From Shewanella donghaensis (GTDB lineage Bacteria; Pseudomonadota; Gammaproteobacteria; Enterobacterales; Shewanellaceae): a stretch of DNA of 64,000 nt. Position 1 is the stretch's first letter, and each line of letters begins with the position of its first letter. The stretch spans positions 1,426,001 through 1,490,000 of the forward strand of contig NZ_CP041783.1 of assembly GCF_007567505.1 (NCBI RefSeq). Reading direction: 5' to 3'. Of this stretch, positions 5,863 to 46,110 are shown in pieces. A program made the position numbers and the translations under genes. Below the pieces are notes generated by a model, which made no database searches, was not told the origin of the DNA, and worked only from the letters and a program-made list of their open reading frames with translations.

Positions 5863-6169
5863 CCTGAATTTATAAAAACTTATTCAAATGGTCACCAATT
5901 AGTCTTTTATTATTATTTTTCGTCTTTTAATCATAAAAATGAGTTCAAACATTAAGAACTCACCAAATAAAATACTGAATCGGGCGTTTAAAGCTTGCTT
6001 ACAAAAGATGATATTTTGTACAACCTTGATGGTGAAGTCTCAAAAGTTTCAATATTGTACAAATATATAGAATAAAATCGTGAGTTTATACTGTGCAACC
6101 AAGAACATTTCAATGATATGACAACAATATATGCTAAAATCGCGTTAACTATTTCTGATAATTGTAGCT
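5863..6169. other. Non-coding stretch upstream of lonH with two TTGTACAA palindromes
   Basis: About 300 bp without a gene. The one clear pattern is a pair of identical 8-bp palindromes TTGTACAA at 6016-6023 and 6055-6062, centres 39 bp apart (close to four helical turns), 108-150 bp before the lonH start. They may be an operator for a dimeric regulator. Confidence 0.35.
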
Positions 6170-7909
6170 ATGACCACAACTTTAATTTCAACACCAAAAC
6201 TTGCACCTCAGTTTACGTTACCGCAATCATTGCCTTCTTTAGCTTACTCAAGCCATTTATTATTAGGCCAGGAACGCTGTGTTGATGCATTTAATTTAAT
6301 GACCAAATTGTCGCATCAACACTTATTTGTTGCTGACTTTGCAGGTATCGACCGTGAGCTGTTTATTAAAGCGCTAGTGAGTCAAGCTGAAACGCCCTCA
6401 GATACATTTTTAGTCGCGACAAAAAGCCAAGATGAGAACCACAATTTTAATTTCCGCTGGCAAACAGAACTGCCATCAGAAAATGTCGGCACCATCGCGC
6501 ATCAAAAGAAGCTTTATACCTATTTAAGCGGTTCTATTCGTCGTGCTGATTTAATTGGCAAGATGCACAAAACTGACAAAACAAGTCAATATAAAGCCGG
6601 TATTTTGGCATCAAATCATTTTGTGTTTATCGATGTGAGCTCTTTGTGGAAACGTGAAGGCCTTTGGGAATTTGTCATGCAAATTCTTGAAGATAAGCAA
6701 TACAGAATTAATAACGATATTGCCCCGATACCACTTAACTGCAAGATTGTACTTATTGGATCTGCCAACTCGTTTACTCACCTCAGATCTGAAGACAGAG
6801 TTTTCTATAAATGTTTCCCTTTACTTGCTGAACTAAATTCAGAAATAGATTTAACAAAATATAGTGAGAAGCAGTATCTACAGTGGTTAGTTAGCTTAGC
6901 TGATGCTCATGATATTACATTAGAGCTTTCAAGCTTAATGCCGCTATTTTGGTACAGCGCTAAGCTCACTGAGCATCAACAGCGTTTAAGCCTATCTATG
7001 GTGCAGATATCACAAGTGCTGACTCAAGCGAGTGCTTATTCAGACAGTACTTCATTAAGTGCAAGCGCTATTGCAAAGTCAATTAATCAAGCCAAAATTC
7101 GCCATAATAGTTCTGAAATTTATTCAGCCCAAAATTTCGATGATAACTTCATTAATTTGCAAACTAGCGGTAAGGTTATTGGTCAGATAAATGGCTTAAC
7201 TGTGATCGATACCGATGATGCAAGCTATGGCGAACCGGCCAGAATTACTACATCAGTCCATTATGGTGATGGTGAAGTCATCGATATAGAAAGAAAATCT
7301 GAATTAGGCGGTAACATCCATACCAAAGGAATGATGATTCTTTCTGCATCCTTATATCGCATATTTGGTCGTGATGTCCCGCTACATTTAAATGCCAATA
7401 TCGTATTTGAACAATCCTATCAAGAGATTGATGGTGATAGTGCATCTTTAGCTGAATATTGTTGCCTGATGTCTGCTATTGCAGAGCAACCTATTAATCA
7501 AGCATTTGCGATTACAGGCGCTCTAGATCAATTCGGGGCAGTTCAAGCTATTGGTGGCGTTAATGAGAAAATTGAAGGCTTTTTTAATCTTTGTAAAAGA
7601 CGAGGCCTAACTGGTGAACATACCGTCATCATTCCAAAGGCAAATGTATTACAACTAAATCTTGAGCCAGAAGTGATTGAAGCCGTTGATAAAGGACTAT
7701 TTCATATACATGCTATCGATCATATGGATCAAGCTATTGAGCTACTGATGAACGATAATGCGGGTGAACGCGATACAGACAACGATTTCCCTGAAGAATC
7801 CATCTATGGCAAGGTACAACGTCGTCTTGAAAAAATGGCTGGACATGACGATGATGAGATCGAGTTAAACTTTTTACAAAAATTATTGATGAAATTGAAA
7901 ATAATTTAG
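6170..7909 (+). CDS. lonH: Lon-like S16 protease LonH (YcbZ)
   Basis: The 579-residue protein matches the enterobacterial LonH/YcbZ length and position directly upstream of fabA. The C-terminal S16 protease domain (about 330-560) has a Ser in DGDSAS (S424) and a Lys in GGVNEKIEG (K467), the Lon-type Ser-Lys dyad. The N-terminal region occupies the place of an AAA module, but no Walker A motif (GxxGxGK[ST]) is visible; the equivalent stretch reads FVADFAGIDRELFIKAL. It may therefore not hydrolyse ATP. The role is probably cytoplasmic proteolysis of unfolded or specific targets; substrates are unknown. The ATG lacks a strong ribosome site. Confidence 0.85.
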   Translation: MTTTLISTPKLAPQFTLPQSLPSLAYSSHLLLGQERCVDAFNLMTKLSHQHLFVADFAGIDRELFIKALVSQAETPSDTFLVATKSQDENHNFNFRWQTELPSENVGTIAHQKKLYTYLSGSIRRADLIGKMHKTDKTSQYKAGILASNHFVFIDVSSLWKREGLWEFVMQILEDKQYRINNDIAPIPLNCKIVLIGSANSFTHLRSEDRVFYKCFPLLAELNSEIDLTKYSEKQYLQWLVSLADAHDITLELSSLMPLFWYSAKLTEHQQRLSLSMVQISQVLTQASAYSDSTSLSASAIAKSINQAKIRHNSSEIYSAQNFDDNFINLQTSGKVIGQINGLTVIDTDDASYGEPARITTSVHYGDGEVIDIERKSELGGNIHTKGMMILSASLYRIFGRDVPLHLNANIVFEQSYQEIDGDSASLAEYCCLMSAIAEQPINQAFAITGALDQFGAVQAIGGVNEKIEGFFNLCKRRGLTGEHTVIIPKANVLQLNLEPEVIEAVDKGLFHIHAIDHMDQAIELLMNDNAGERDTDNDFPEESIYGKVQRRLEKMAGHDDDEIELNFLQKLLMKLKII

Positions 7910-7924
7910 TGATCGGAGTTGTTT

Positions 7925-7942
7925 AGCTTACACGTGTTCGCT
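7925..7942. promoter_or_regulatory. FabR-like operator upstream of fabA
   Basis: The near-palindrome AGCTTACACGTGTTCGCT differs at one position per arm from the symmetric AGCGTACACGTGTACGCT, which is the form of the FabR site before fabA and fabB in gammaproteobacteria. It lies 41 bp before the fabA ATG. Binding would tie transcription to the unsaturated acyl-chain pool. The assignment is from memory of the motif. Confidence 0.65.
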
Positions 7943-7982
7943 ATCTTGTCAGCCTATCCGTAAATAAGTGGTAATGATTTAA

Positions 7983-8498
7983 ATGAAAAGAGCTAACAGT
8001 TTCACTAAAGAAGAACTGATCGCATGTGGTAATGGCAACCTTTTTGAGCCTAATTCTCCTCGCTTGCCTGTCGATAATATGTTGATGATTGATCGTATTA
8101 CAGAAATCAATTCTGATGGCGGAGCATTCGGTAAAGGTGAAATCGTAGCAGAACTGGATATCACACCTGACTTATGGTTTTTTGACTGTCACTTTAACGG
8201 TGACCCTGTCATGCCAGGTTGTTTAGGCTTAGATGCAATGTGGCAGTTAGTCGGTTTCTATCTTGGTTGGGAAGGAGCTGAAGGCAAAGGGCGAGCTTTG
8301 GGCGTTGGTGAAGTGAAATTCACGGGTCAAGTATTACCAGAAGCGAAAAAAGTCACTTATAAACTGACCTTGAAGCGTAAAATACATCGTAAACTTGTTA
8401 TGGGTATTGCTGACGCAACGATGGAAGTTGATGGCAGAGAAATATATTCTGCTACAGATTTAAAAGTGGGTATATTTAAAGATACTTCAACTTTTTAA
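7983..8498 (+). CDS. fabA: 3-hydroxyacyl-ACP dehydratase/isomerase FabA
   Basis: FabA dehydrates 3-hydroxydecanoyl-ACP and isomerises trans-2- to cis-3-decenoyl-ACP, the branch point for unsaturated fatty acids. The 171-residue length equals the family norm. The active-site residues are H70 in [14 protein letters not shown] and D84 in [11 protein letters not shown], the same numbering as the E. coli enzyme. It is a cytoplasmic hot-dog-fold homodimer. A FabR-like palindrome lies just upstream, and a strong hairpin follows the stop. The order lonH-fabA-rmf is the same as in enteric bacteria. Its product route also feeds acyl chains that OleA may use downstream in this window, although that link is inference. 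Confidence 0.97.
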
Positions 8499-41680: not shown

Positions 41681-42934
41681 CTAAAAGGCCTCATTAACAT
41701 TAAAGTAAAAGCCTGAGTCTCCATCACCCAAAGCGAAATCGAGACGAAGGTTCACTTTAGGCTTTACTTCGAAACGATAACCGACACCAACATTGGGCAG
41801 TAAATTGGATGATATTAAATCATTAAAATCTTCAGATATTACCCCTGCACCGACCCAGTATACCATGCCATGCCTACCGCTTATATGTTGACGATATTCA
41901 GCCTGAGCCAGTAACATCTGCTTATCACGGTATCGGCCAGTGGTATAACCTCTTAATGAATCACCACCACCTATTTTTGATAGTTGATCCCATGGTACAT
42001 CTCCATGGGTAAAGCGTCCCCTGATTTGCCAGGCAAAAATATCATCTTCAGAGACTTTATAGTAGGTGCTATATAAGGCGTTATAGGCCTCAAAATCGGT
42101 TTTACTGCCTAAGTCTTTTCGATATACGCCTACTTCTATCTGGGCAATTCTGCCAGTTTGCGGGTTTAATACGTTGTCACGGGTATCAAAATTTAATAGT
42201 AAATTAATGCCTACACTGTGTGAGCTATCGAATAAAGGATCTACTGAAACGGCGGCATCTAATATATCGACATCACTGGCTTCTGCATAATGAGCATCAA
42301 AACCAACTCCGACAAAACTGTTTGTCGATATCCGTTGGTGAAACATGGGGTTTATTCCATAAGTTCGGCTGCTCAATTCAACACGATTGTTGTCATTATG
42401 ATTATTGTCATATCCAATGCCATAATAAACATCTGGAACGTCAAAAAACTCAGCTGAAATAAATAACCGCTGATTATCGTCATTAAAAAATGTTTTACTT
42501 TCAACTGCAGCGCCTAGCGCACCATTGATTGATGCGAGTCCATTAATCACCAATGATGATAATTGACTCACTTTGTCTTCAGGGTCCACCTGATATAAAC
42601 CTACGGCAGACACGCCGACGCCCAAACTCATTTCAGGATTATAAAAAGGGCCAGGAAGAATACTAAAATCGATTAATTTATCTGGGTCAAACTCACCATC
42701 TGCACCAATTTTCTTTAAAAAATCTTCAAACCATCCTTCAGATCCTTGATCATCAGCTATGGTTTCGATTTGATCCGGTGCAACCGATTCATGCTCATCT
42801 TGGTTTGCCGTTATTGGTGCGTTATTATCGAAATTAGATTCAGAAAGAACATCAGCAACTGCATAGTTGATGCTAAATAAGCTAACACTAATAGCAATTA
42901 GCAGACTTGAAACAGAGTGGTTAGTTATTTTCAT
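41681..42934 (-). CDS. BamA/TamA (Omp85)-like outer membrane protein
   Basis: A 417-residue outer-membrane barrel lacking recognisable POTRA domains. A signal peptide (MKITNHSVSSLLIAISVSLF..) and an acidic linker to about 85 are followed by a beta-barrel: FYNPEMSLGVGVSAVGLYQV near 93-112, NLLLNFDTRDNVLNPQTGRIAQIEVGVY, and the C-terminal KIGGGDSLRGYTTGRYRD and DFALGDGDSGFYFNVNEAF. LRGY is the hallmark of Omp85 barrels. This resembles short bacterial surface antigen (D15) proteins. I use the ATG at 42934, which overlaps the DUF4056 gene stop by 14 bp. Last gene of the envelope module. Confidence 0.78.
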   Translation of the reverse strand: MKITNHSVSSLLIAISVSLFSINYAVADVLSESNFDNNAPITANQDEHESVAPDQIETIADDQGSEGWFEDFLKKIGADGEFDPDKLIDFSILPGPFYNPEMSLGVGVSAVGLYQVDPEDKVSQLSSLVINGLASINGALGAAVESKTFFNDDNQRLFISAEFFDVPDVYYGIGYDNNHNDNNRVELSSRTYGINPMFHQRISTNSFVGVGFDAHYAEASDVDILDAAVSVDPLFDSSHSVGINLLLNFDTRDNVLNPQTGRIAQIEVGVYRKDLGSKTDFEAYNALYSTYYKVSEDDIFAWQIRGRFTHGDVPWDQLSKIGGGDSLRGYTTGRYRDKQMLLAQAEYRQHISGRHGMVYWVGAGVISEDFNDLISSNLLPNVGVGYRFEVKPKVNLRLDFALGDGDSGFYFNVNEAF

Positions 42935-44336
42935 TAAGCAGCGCACCTATTGCAGGTTGTTTCATTCCTGAATCCAACATTGCAGACTCACCCAATAACT
43001 CAGCAGTTTGCAGTTCATCGTCTTCACTGTTGTCTGGTAAATCTGCAAGTAGTACTTGTTGATGGGTTAGATGAGGATTATCAGCTAAATGTTGTTCCAG
43101 TAACACGTAATCCTCACGTTCATCGTATTTGGCAATGTCGACAAACTGTAAATGAGTAATGCCATCAAGCCACAACTCCTCTGGTACGTGACTAAATGAG
43201 CCAGCAAACTTTTTATCCACGCTAATGTGCTGCACTGCAACTTCATCAAAATTAATGCCAAAAAGCTCAACTGCTAATGATAAGTTTTGTGGTGATGTAG
43301 GCTCTTCGTAAATCGATGCAAGCTTATCCCACTCTGAACTCGCTTGAGCTTGTTCTTTACTGACTAAATGAGGCGATTGCTTATTTCCTAACTTATAATG
43401 ACGTTTAAGTAATACAAATTTATTCGGCAGCGGTTCATTTGAATCCCACCAATCAGCATCTATCGCTCTAAAGAGTGCATTGGTTTGCTCTTTAGATAAA
43501 GGCTCTAGCCAGGTCAATGTGGCGGCTAACCAGCCAGTCATATGATAGTCATATTGCTTCTTAGTCATGGCTAAATTATTGGTCAATATTGCTAGGGCTA
43601 TTTTTGCCCCTAACATATTGGAATATAAATCTTCTACCGAGTAAGCCGATACCGCTTCGGTCCACAAAGCAAAACTACGATAGCCATGCCACTGAGATAT
43701 CTCATGGGCTTCTGCCATTGAGAATGCTAATCGCGCAGCCATGGCCGCGGCTAACTCCCAACGATCATCTGCTGATAATTCGCTTACATCAAATGCCGTC
43801 ATTTCAATGCTTCTTTGACCAATTTCAAGTGGTAACTTGATAGAATGTGCCTGACCCAATTTGGGTAGAATTTGATAAAATAAGGCAATGGCATTATCTG
43901 CAGTATCTCGCACATGGGCTAAATCAATAAATCCGCCTTTACGGGTATAGAGCATGCCATTGTTTTCCATGCTTTTACCACTATCTGGTGATGATTTCTC
44001 ATAACTAAATGTTCCAGCGTCAAAAGCATGGGCACCAATATCTTCAAGTTCGACAGTATTAGCGTGACGATAAAAAGGAATGGGCAATAACCCCATGGCC
44101 ACTTTTTGGTCAAAACCAAAAGCACAACAAGGTCGAACACTCGCAGGCATCGATAAAGCAGCATCAGGCAAGATAATATCTCTGATTAAAGCATTATCAG
44201 GAATATCATCTAATGCGGCACTCACAGCAATATCAGAGGGTAATGCGCGTACTTGCCATTCATTACTAGAGCACCCACCCAAAGTCATGGTTAAACCTAA
44301 AAATAATAGTCCTACCAATATATTGACGATCTTCAT
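42921..44336 (-). CDS. DUF4056 family lipoprotein
   Basis: The 471-residue protein has a lipoprotein signal peptide with lipobox LGGCSS (Cys22). The middle, with RKGGFIDLAHVRDTADN and AAAMAARLAFSMAEAHEISQWHG near residues 130-220, carries a helix with HEISQWHG that recalls a metal-binding HExxxH pattern (H-E-I-S-Q-W-H). This is typical for DUF4056 and suggests a zinc-dependent hydrolase on the periplasmic or outer-membrane face, but no activity is known. Its start overlaps the hydrolase lipoprotein stop by 4 bp and its stop overlaps the Omp85-like start by 14 bp, so expression is coupled. Confidence 0.8.
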   Translation of the reverse strand: MKIVNILVGLLFLGLTMTLGGCSSNEWQVRALPSDIAVSAALDDIPDNALIRDIILPDAALSMPASVRPCCAFGFDQKVAMGLLPIPFYRHANTVELEDIGAHAFDAGTFSYEKSSPDSGKSMENNGMLYTRKGGFIDLAHVRDTADNAIALFYQILPKLGQAHSIKLPLEIGQRSIEMTAFDVSELSADDRWELAAAMAARLAFSMAEAHEISQWHGYRSFALWTEAVSAYSVEDLYSNMLGAKIALAILTNNLAMTKKQYDYHMTGWLAATLTWLEPLSKEQTNALFRAIDADWWDSNEPLPNKFVLLKRHYKLGNKQSPHLVSKEQAQASSEWDKLASIYEEPTSPQNLSLAVELFGINFDEVAVQHISVDKKFAGSFSHVPEELWLDGITHLQFVDIAKYDEREDYVLLEQHLADNPHLTHQQVLLADLPDNSEDDELQTAELLGESAMLDSGMKQPAIGALLNENN

Positions 44337-45250
44337 TGAATAAATGTCCTTATTTCATTAGTTATTTTCTCAGGAAAGTCATTACTTAACCCATGGGCAC
44401 CATCAGGAATAACGATGATAGGTGCATTCAAAAACTCAGCAAAGCGTTGGCCATTATCTAGCAAAAAAACCTGATCGTTAGCTCCCCAAATAAGCAATGA
44501 AGGCGGAAGCGGATGTTCAAAACCTGCAGCAATAAGTTGATCTCGGTATGCCGGTAATGTGGTAATGAGTGATTCTTTTTCAGGGTGATAACTGTCGAAG
44601 TATTGATGGTAAACCTGTGTATCAATAAAAGATGGCATCCAAGGAAAGCTCACAAAGGTATTTTCCAATAACAATCTCACTTCGGAACCATTTTTAGGGA
44701 CAAACACATCTTTTGCTTCATCGGCGCCGAAGCGTCGACTCATCGCCAGCATATCCTCATCAGAGAAAATAATTCCTGGGCTCGCCAGCATAACCGCTTT
44801 ATTCACCTTGGGTTCATTGATCATTAAATCGAAGGTAACAAAGCCCCCAAAAGAGATACCGACGACATTCACGCTATTGAGCTCTAAAGAACTAATCAGC
44901 TGCTGTATGGCTTGAGTCTCGGAGCTAATAGTTGCTGGAGCATCATTAAATGAATCACCAAACCATAATAAATCAGGCACGATAACATGATAATCTGCAC
45001 TCAAATCTTTCATGATTTCGTACCAACTTGTCATGCCTGTGCCACCAAAGCCATGCAAAAGAAAAATCACTGGAGCCCTAGTATCACCACCCTGCCAATA
45101 ATGCAGTTCGCCGCCTTCTTCTAACGCTAATGTATGACGCTCAAAACCTGTATTCGTTAAGCTAGATTGTTGATATTGATCAATCATATTAACAGTGCCA
45201 CAACCTGTTAAAAGCAATATAAGAAAAATTACAGCGACAGTTTTCATCAT
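44333..45250 (-). CDS. Alpha/beta-hydrolase lipoprotein
   Basis: The 305-residue protein has a short lipoprotein signal peptide with lipobox LLTGCGT (Cys17). The fold is alpha/beta hydrolase: oxyanion turn FLLHGFGGTGMTSW near 65-78, nucleophile Ser in VVGISFGGFVTFD near 130-143, an Asp likely in SLLIWGANDQVF and His in PDGAHGLSND near 285. A lipid-anchored hydrolase facing the periplasm or outer-membrane inner leaflet is the reading; the substrate could be a lipid or ester. It shares one base with the previous stop (TAATG) and overlaps the DUF4056 gene by 4 bp. Confidence 0.82.
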   Translation of the reverse strand: MMKTVAVIFLILLLTGCGTVNMIDQYQQSSLTNTGFERHTLALEEGGELHYWQGGDTRAPVIFLLHGFGGTGMTSWYEIMKDLSADYHVIVPDLLWFGDSFNDAPATISSETQAIQQLISSLELNSVNVVGISFGGFVTFDLMINEPKVNKAVMLASPGIIFSDEDMLAMSRRFGADEAKDVFVPKNGSEVRLLLENTFVSFPWMPSFIDTQVYHQYFDSYHPEKESLITTLPAYRDQLIAAGFEHPLPPSLLIWGANDQVFLLDNGQRFAEFLNAPIIVIPDGAHGLSNDFPEKITNEIRTFIQ

Positions 45251-46110
45251 TAGAATCTATATCCTATCCCAGCCATAAAGCTTGATCGCGTGCCAAAACC
45301 GCCTTCAATCAGTAAATCAAAGCCTTTTCCTAGCGCAATCTGACCGCCAAACAAACCATTCCACTTATCTTCTAAATGCTGGTTTACTTCAAACTTGCCA
45401 TCACCTAAAGGGATACCAATATCAGATAAATAGCCACTAAAGGTTTGCTCTACGTTTTGGTACATAGCACCAACCCATATTTGGGTATCATGACCATAAA
45501 ACTTTGTGCGATAACCGACCCTTGGTGAGACCACAATTGAACTAATTTCGCCATCAAGAATATCAAGGTCGGTATTGGTATAATTTACGTCAAGTAATGC
45601 GAACCAGTTGCCGATACCACCCACAATTGTGCCGCCAGCGCCATAAGTGGTGCCTTTAAAATTTAACTCAAAATCGAATGGGTCAGATACCAGTGGAGGC
45701 TGAAAAGGCCTATCAAATTCAATTTGTACATTGGCGATACTGCTTCCTTTTGTTTGACCGATAACGCCATATAAATTTAAAAAAGGTAGTACCCACATAT
45801 CTGCACGTAAAGTTATCGTTTCTGAGTCTTGAAAAGCTTCACTACCTTTAATTGAAACATTATCGTCAATGATATCTCCTAAACCGGAAAAACTCACACT
45901 ATCAACGATTAAGGGTTGTTCCATCGACATGTAATTGATTGTGAAACCGTAAGGTTTAGGCAGTTCATGCCCCAAATCAATGGCTTCTTGTGCCCATATA
46001 GGAAATGCACGCTCATATTTTGGGGTGACTTCTATTGTTTCTTCTGCAACAGCAAATGCACTTAAAAAACCGCTAGAAAGCAGTAATACAACGAAAGAAA
46101 TACGTAACAT
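45250..46110 (-). CDS. Outer-membrane beta-barrel protein, first gene of envelope module
   Basis: A 286-residue protein with a signal peptide (MLRISFVVLLLSSGFLSAFA) and a pattern of amphipathic strands: ITLRADMWVLPFLNLYGVIGQTKG, GTTYGAGGTIVGGIGNWFALLDVNYTNTDL and VSPRVGYRTKFYGHDTQIWVGAMYQNVEQ. It ends ..FMAGIGYRF, with a C-terminal Phe as required for insertion by BamA. The barrel has about ten to twelve strands. I know of no named relative. Promoter should lie in the preceding 335 bp, and the gene heads the run OMP-hydrolase-DUF4056-Omp85. Confidence 0.72.
   Translation of the reverse strand: MLRISFVVLLLSSGFLSAFAVAEETIEVTPKYERAFPIWAQEAIDLGHELPKPYGFTINYMSMEQPLIVDSVSFSGLGDIIDDNVSIKGSEAFQDSETITLRADMWVLPFLNLYGVIGQTKGSSIANVQIEFDRPFQPPLVSDPFDFELNFKGTTYGAGGTIVGGIGNWFALLDVNYTNTDLDILDGEISSIVVSPRVGYRTKFYGHDTQIWVGAMYQNVEQTFSGYLSDIGIPLGDGKFEVNQHLEDKWNGLFGGQIALGKGFDLLIEGGFGTRSSFMAGIGYRF

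Follow-up and report, generated by a model that had tools for sequence, protein, structure and literature searches.

A co-inherited outer-membrane gene block of Shewanella donghaensis joins a predicted Lipocone enzyme to two barrels and may process lipids

In this work, we have analysed a four-gene locus in a 64,000-nucleotide stretch of the Shewanella donghaensis genome (NZ_CP041783.1, positions 1,426,001 to 1,490,000; hereafter the window). The locus encodes a barrel that we call barrelA, an alpha/beta hydrolase lipoprotein (abh), a DUF4056 lipoprotein and an Omp85-like barrel. We put at about one half the probability that these genes form a self-contained outer-membrane module for lipid processing that is horizontally mobile. 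Three genes, barrelA, the Omp85-like gene and DUF4056, make up its core; the hydrolase serves as an accessory that can be exchanged. The cell probably trims or remodels its own outer-membrane lipids by means of this module.

The case begins with how strictly the core genes are kept together. Our comparison drew on 40 DUF4056 neighbourhoods from genomes of the same order, plus plasmid and other annotated records; with near-duplicates removed, the locus set comprises 46 DUF4056 loci. BarrelA is contiguous with DUF4056 at 41 of these, the Omp85-like gene at 39 and the hydrolase at 13. Packing is tight, with 88 of 93 gene junctions at <=20 bp, 63 of 93 overlapping and a median gap of -1 bp. The conserved block that an earlier sequence-only reading of this DNA had proposed to search for therefore exists, and its members are not scattered in unrelated places. 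That reading had envisaged a fixed four-gene device for processing lipids. The lipid theme stands, and four genes as an obligate unit are rejected because the hydrolase is optional.

A survey of 395 genomes of the order (cut-offs >300 bits for DUF4056, >300 bits for barrelA and >470 bits for the Omp85 orthologue) found DUF4056 in 45 genomes, barrelA in 47, including all 45 with DUF4056, and the Omp85 orthologue in 41, every one of them among the same 45. At the genome level, Fisher p values are 2e-57 for barrelA and 1e-51 for Omp85, and at the genus level co-occurrence is 17/17 versus 0/98, a conservation far beyond chance. Gene order is permuted: barrelA-omp85-duf occurs at 24 loci, the window's barrelA-abh-duf-omp85 at 10, barrelA-duf-omp85 at three, barrelA-abh-duf at two and barrelA-omp85-abh-duf at one, plus others, and the flanking genes vary between families. 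In G243, G723 and G600 the block is dispersed, with DUF4056 and barrelA unlinked and both still kept. Decay is also seen. At the window's chromosomal site in Shewanella G560 (L091 6622-7894), an internal deletion fuses the beginning of the abh gene with the end of the Omp85-like gene, DUF4056 is gone and barrelA alone is intact; in Shewanella subflava (L040), a short Omp85 remnant follows DUF4056.

The block transfers between families as one unit, with its linkage kept. In the DUF4056 tree, the copy of Shewanella G569 groups with Photobacterium, to which all three of its core genes are nearest, and that of Shewanella G290 falls among Vibrio-like genomes (a label based on their gene content). 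The remaining core genes bear the DUF4056 tree out, with pairwise identities correlated at r = 0.90 to 0.94. Plasmids carry intact core blocks: IncF plasmids of E. coli (4 of 5,426 genomes, with every copy plasmid-borne), a Serratia conjugative plasmid and a megaplasmid of Rahnella. Records of Proteus and Salmonella houtenae have them too, the latter as a chromosomal barrelA-Omp85-DUF4056 block (L126 3543-6984). DUF4056 was not found in viral contigs, and in the phage collection it appears in two Salmonella records only.

Within the window, the four open reading frames are complete and intact, and overlap successively by 1, 4 and 14 bp, which bears out their description as one translational unit. 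The 14-bp overlap of DUF4056 with the Omp85-like gene presupposes the ATG at 42934; a GTG further upstream, at 42946, would make it 26 bp. The four genes look like a single operon, since the nearest upstream gene is 335 bp off and the nearest downstream gene is convergent. Six Shewanella sequences showed no sufficiently conserved shared promoter motif ahead of the operon. By protein match, the genomes closest to the window are those of Shewanella. An export signal is apparent at the N-terminus of each product and, together with two lipoboxes and two barrels ending in Phe, agrees with the earlier view that all four proteins are exported, as predicted from sequence.

The central enzyme of the module would be the DUF4056 protein, which matches PF13265 at 2.6e-106 (355 bits against a cut-off of 23.6; Pfam) and bears the lipobox TLGGC at Cys22. 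The family had been taken in the sequence-only reading to have no assigned function, which is superseded by its published assignment to the Lipocone superfamily as CapCone-DUF4056, with an HHpred link at p = 2.5e-5 (Burroughs, Nicastro and Aravind 2025, PMC12419801). The Lipocone domain has four helices and a pocket formed by a His (H2), a Glu (H3) and an Asp (H4), and the superfamily consists of lipid head-group phosphoester enzymes; PTDSS1/2 and TelC attack phosphate linkages in lipid head groups, and TelC, from the same clade as DUF4056, cuts lipid II (PMC12419801).

Every motif of the published CapCone signature is conserved across 37 DUF4056 proteins, in which Gly135, Asp138, His141, Glu212, Ser230, Ser233, Asp236, Ser239, Asn240 and Gly243 are invariant and residue 232, preceding Ser233, is always Tyr or Phe. 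In H2, the Gly stands six residues upstream of His141 and the xD pair starts four upstream (I137-D138); the H3 Glu is present, as are the S/GxxSxx-Asp of H4, the aromatic before its Ser, the small-Asn pair at +4 and the Gly cap. By its sequence the protein belongs to CapCone-DUF4056; the signature does not independently prove the Lipocone fold, and the Lipocone chemistry of the family is a published prediction. A PDB profile search with DUF4056 found no relative, and helices 139-160, 189-216 and 234-254 of a low-confidence AlphaFold2 (AF2) model (predicted local distance difference test, pLDDT, 33) agree with H2, H3 and H4.

The segment HEISQWHG had earlier been read as a possible metal site of metalloprotease type. 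Of this reading we rejected the metalloprotease, not metal binding as such: the segment is not HExxH, the second-His position is Gln215 in all 37 proteins, and its Glu occupies the Lipocone H3 position, with its partners His141 and Asp236 elsewhere in the chain. The earlier label of lipoprotein holds for DUF4056 in the window's clade and a few others; most remaining homologues have a plain signal peptide.

Of the two barrels, which end in GIGYRF and VNEAF, barrelA has no Pfam family in the window, and the generic OMP_b-brl model weakly matches 16 of its 32 homologues. AF2 predicts a barrel of about ten strands (pLDDT 75, predicted TM-score 0.68). A fold search gave generic barrel matches only, the best natural ones being ten-strand omptins, at Z 15 with 4% identity; we read this as barrel topology only and did not adopt an omptin protease function. 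A PDB profile search with barrelA found no relative. The Omp85-like barrel matches PF01103 at 3.5e-13 and, by profile, the barrel of 9ccg at 6.4e-12 (a literature search found no paper identifying 9ccg). A Pfam scan matched no POTRA domain, so the protein is not of the canonical BamA/TamA/TpsB type, and its earlier description as a POTRA-less Omp85 barrel is upheld. Distant barrelA paralogues are likewise paired with Omp85-like barrels (L101, L104, L108), and L093 has the pair without DUF4056; the two barrels may therefore be the oldest pair of the module.

Both barrel families have further relatives. A second class of POTRA-less Omp85 protein, scoring 335-400 bits to the window family (L111, also L114, L115, L116 and L117), is partnered by a secreted protein (230-290 aa) in which '..YSIYLSGLHTGTMDRTEIWQGQ..' occurs and for which Pfam has no match. 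The two genes often overlap or lie a few bp apart, another conserved two-gene outer-membrane unit without DUF4056; L111 lies in the window's own genome (G000:C1:3003563-3018699, genes 6998-8152 and 6091-6957). The same genome has, at 6998-8455 of L098 (G000:C1:1385060-1399899), a paralogue of barrelA that bears an additional lipoprotein domain at its N-terminus and lies divergent from genes that to our eye resemble tamA and tamB. A SYLF/Ysc84 domain on long barrelA paralogues matched weakly in one of three only (L107) and was not used as evidence.

The window hydrolase matches Abhydrolase_1 at 1.7e-17 (Pfam) and carries the lipobox LLLTGC, as the sequence-only reading had it; the triad Ser133/Asp259/His286 and the lipobox Cys17 are invariant in 13 homologues. 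Its best PDB profile match, at 4e-26, is 6i8w, the phospholipase A PlaF (PMC9132575), with many non-lipase hydrolases ranking after. In other lineages a patatin lipoprotein is found instead, directly after DUF4056 in L046 and in Photobacterium (L125), and after barrelA, with a 4-bp overlap, in L094. Six genomes of one genus have abh at a separate site, away from the module, and two more of that genus have abh without DUF4056. In two Vibrio-like genomes (L058 and L077), dgkA stands 3-4 bp downstream of DUF4056, and L057 and L068 adjoin an eptA-like gene (named from its sequence), dgkA and a two-component pair.

On the E. coli plasmid pRHB24-C10_2 (L121, 1355-6999), barrelA and DUF4056 follow polysaccharide deacetylase, GT4 and DUF535/virK genes. 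This order resembles the Shigella plasmid lipopolysaccharide (LPS) locus, which has msbB2 where barrelA-DUF4056 stand, and suggests a swap within an LPS-modifying cassette. One enteric group (L059, L067, L123) has the module extended by genes for an MscS-type mechanosensitive channel and a second Omp85-like protein. In Proteus mirabilis (L124 8243-12048), an MBOAT acyltransferase and two further genes lie about 1.2 kb after the module. Most of the nameable accessories, the channel excepted, act on lipids or LPS. The Lipocone domain, the hydrolase closest to PlaF, the replacement by patatin and the dgkA, eptA and LPS-operon neighbours together support the lipid-processing theme.

Table 1. Features of the locus; coordinates are positions within the 64,000-nt window, except in the last row, where they are positions within the named loci.
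Feature	Position	Strand	Description
barrelA	45250..46110	-	286 aa, signal peptide, ~10 predicted strands, C-terminal Phe; first gene of the operon
abh	44333..45250	-	305-aa lipoprotein, alpha/beta hydrolase; optional accessory gene
abh catalytic Ser133	44852..44854	-	GIS-F/Y-GG nucleophile elbow; invariant in 13 homologues
abh catalytic Asp259	44474-44476	-	partner of Ser133; invariant in 13 homologues
abh catalytic His286	44393-44395	-	partner of Ser133; invariant in 13 homologues
DUF4056 lipoprotein	42921..44336	-	471 aa; Lipocone (CapCone-DUF4056) domain at residues 60-325
DUF4056 Lipocone H2 His141	43914..43916	-	Gly135 at -6, Ile137-Asp138; His141 invariant in 37
DUF4056 Lipocone H3 His211-Glu212	43701..43706	-	inside the HEISQW segment; invariant in 37
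DUF4056 Lipocone H4 S230-x-x-S233-x-x-D236	43629..43649	-	followed by S239-N240 and G243; S, S, D, S, N, G invariant in 37
Omp85-superfamily barrel, noNterm type (without POTRA)	41681..42934	-	417 aa, C-terminal NEAF
Omp85 signature R-G-Y, residues 328-330	41945..41953	-	R328 and Y330 invariant, G329 nearly so (31 orthologues)
MscS-type channel gene	L123 7123-8775; L059 1925-3577		upstream or downstream of the module

How such a module might work can be sketched as follows, with a physical complex, its outer-membrane site, the substrate and the order of the steps being what we infer. The two barrels would form a platform in the outer membrane that locally opens or thins the bilayer and passes lipid into the pocket of the Lipocone. 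This enzyme, DUF4056, would face the periplasm, in the window tethered as a lipoprotein, and would use His141, Glu212 and Asp236 to attack the head-group phosphoester of a phospholipid or glycolipid, so that either a diacylglycerol-like product remains or the head group is passed to an acceptor. The accessory would then handle the acyl part, as the PlaF-like lipoprotein hydrolase in the window or the patatin lipoprotein in other lineages; where DUF4056 precedes dgkA, the accessory would be diacylglycerol kinase, so that lipase or kinase consumes the product. In this specific form, a mobile enzyme complex in which barrels feed a Lipocone, the Lipocone removes or exchanges phosphate head groups and a plug-in slot holds the product-consuming enzyme, the scheme is tentative and, in our estimate, less likely than not.

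Several observations weigh against the lipid-processing module and this scheme. AF2 gave no usable fold for DUF4056 (built from four sequences, pLDDT 33), and hhalign of DUF4056 with three YfiM/DUF2279 Lipocone proteins returned no match, on few sequences and with a template effective sequence number (Neff) of 1.6. Direct linkage to dgkA is limited to the two genomes, the eptA-dgkA neighbourhood could be incidental, and DgkA acts at the inner membrane, which sits uneasily with an outer-membrane reaction. Outside the window's clade, most homologues have neither a lipobox nor a linked lipase, so the module can do without acyl cleavage.

Some of the same neighbours fit the main rival of the lipid-processing module, a role in surface-polysaccharide or LPS modification, in which DUF4056 would release or transfer glycan on undecaprenyl-phosphate- or lipid A-linked sugars, the barrels would export or insert the product and the lipases would be auxiliary. 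The cleavage of lipid II by TelC, the plasmid operon of L121 with its deacetylase, GT4 and virK genes, and the Proteus MBOAT acyltransferase all lean this way, and DgkA-family kinases are able to recycle lipid alcohols. Against it, no glycosyltransferase, flippase or polymerase recurs among the neighbours examined, L121 apart, and the PlaF-like and patatin enzymes indicate acyl lipids; we consider this role possible but rather unlikely.

The sequence-only reading had also raised surface export, for which our analysis yielded no positive evidence. Here the POTRA-less Omp85 protein would translocate DUF4056, the hydrolase or both, as in type V or two-partner secretion. The Omp85 superfamily is one of translocators and insertases, and a cargo-transporter pair would be in keeping with the tight coupling to two exported enzymes. 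However, there is no POTRA domain for cargo recognition, and the Omp85 gene persists in the absence of both lipases and alongside DUF4056 proteins that are not lipoproteins. BarrelA-Omp85 pairs without either enzyme occur in L093, L101, L104 and L108, and PlpD, formerly thought to be an exporter, retains its lipase in the periplasm (PMC11116518). Export is accordingly improbable, and we rank it, with the toxin reading below, as less likely than both lipid processing and LPS modification.

As a toxin, of the type VI secretion system (T6SS) or polymorphic kind, DUF4056 would have precedents: related CapCone families serve as toxin tips (PMC12419801), a DUF4056 open reading frame in Salmonella pathogenicity island 6 (SPI-6) of S. 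Kentucky was proposed as a T6SS effector candidate (PMC11669294), and tss genes lie near the Rahnella copy. The protein nevertheless has its own signal peptide or lipobox, no delivery domain (Pfam) and no small variable immunity gene; its neighbours are outer-membrane barrels, it is uniformly conserved across families with fixed partners, and no PADLOC family was matched. All this makes a toxin very unlikely. The S. Kentucky candidate may be part of such an envelope module instead, because DUF4056 of Salmonella houtenae sits in the block. Last and least probable is a structural envelope-stress module, whose barrels and lipoproteins would tune outer-membrane assembly or osmotic behaviour with enzymatic residues of minor account: the MscS-type channel and second Omp85-like gene in the operon of one group speak for it, and the invariant catalytic residues of DUF4056 and the hydrolase, and a lipase type swapped rather than merely lost in several lineages, speak against it.

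The removal and rebuilding of phospholipids in the outer membrane are partly understood, through OmpLA, Mla and PlpD. If the specific scheme of barrels, Lipocone and plug-in enzyme is right, it would add a new, plasmid-borne route for outer-membrane lipid turnover or head-group remodelling and give a POTRA-less Omp85 protein its first defined role. Strict co-inheritance ties a Lipocone to two outer-membrane barrels, whether in the genomes of Shewanella, Vibrio-like bacteria and enterics or on conjugative plasmids of E. coli. This gives a function hypothesis for DUF4056, the unnamed barrel family and POTRA-less Omp85 proteins and makes predicted Lipocone chemistry testable. The DUF4056 gene that was proposed to encode a T6SS effector in Salmonella can, moreover, be read in another way.

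The families themselves were already known; their combination, strict co-occurrence, exchangeable lipases and plasmid spread were not found in the main texts of the papers examined. By sequence, the window DUF4056 is a member of CapCone-DUF4056 and carries its published residue signature, whereas the main text of PMC12419801 gives only motifs and clade for that family; the barrelA-Omp85-lipase/dgkA module was not found in that main text. The YfiM-Griddle and YfiM-DUF2279 operons, with outer-membrane barrels, patatin and PAP2, likewise link Lipocones to barrels and lipid hydrolases and have predicted outer-membrane head-group chemistry (PMC12419801). They belong, however, to another Lipocone clade, whereas the window DUF4056 is of the soluble CapCone clade, here soluble or lipid-anchored, and its barrels are barrelA and a POTRA-less Omp85.

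PlaF of Pseudomonas aeruginosa (6I8W, PMC9132575), a membrane-tethered serine hydrolase that remodels endogenous phospholipids, is the closest solved relative of the window hydrolase. The latter shares the serine hydrolase triad and a membrane anchor, and its phospholipase A activity is putative; the match (4e-26 by profile) is at the superfamily level only. To our knowledge, PlaF is not in a barrel operon. The noNterm Omp85 proteins (Heinz and Lithgow 2014, PMC4104836) are also barrels without POTRA or any other N-terminal domain, a class defined by architecture with a function merely suggested, whereas the window protein comes with a fixed set of partner genes. PlpD/FplA of type Vd, in which a phospholipase is joined to an Omp85-family barrel, is the nearest working analogue; PlpD itself, whose patatin is fused to its barrel, is an enzyme of outer-membrane phospholipid homeostasis acting in the periplasm (PMC11116518). 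With separate genes and no POTRA, the window module does not belong to type Vd, which has patatin, POTRA and Omp85 in one chain. PlpD is a single polypeptide with POTRA, no Lipocone and no second barrel, whereas in the window module lipase, Omp85 barrel and Lipocone are separate proteins, and patatin appears only in some of its relatives.

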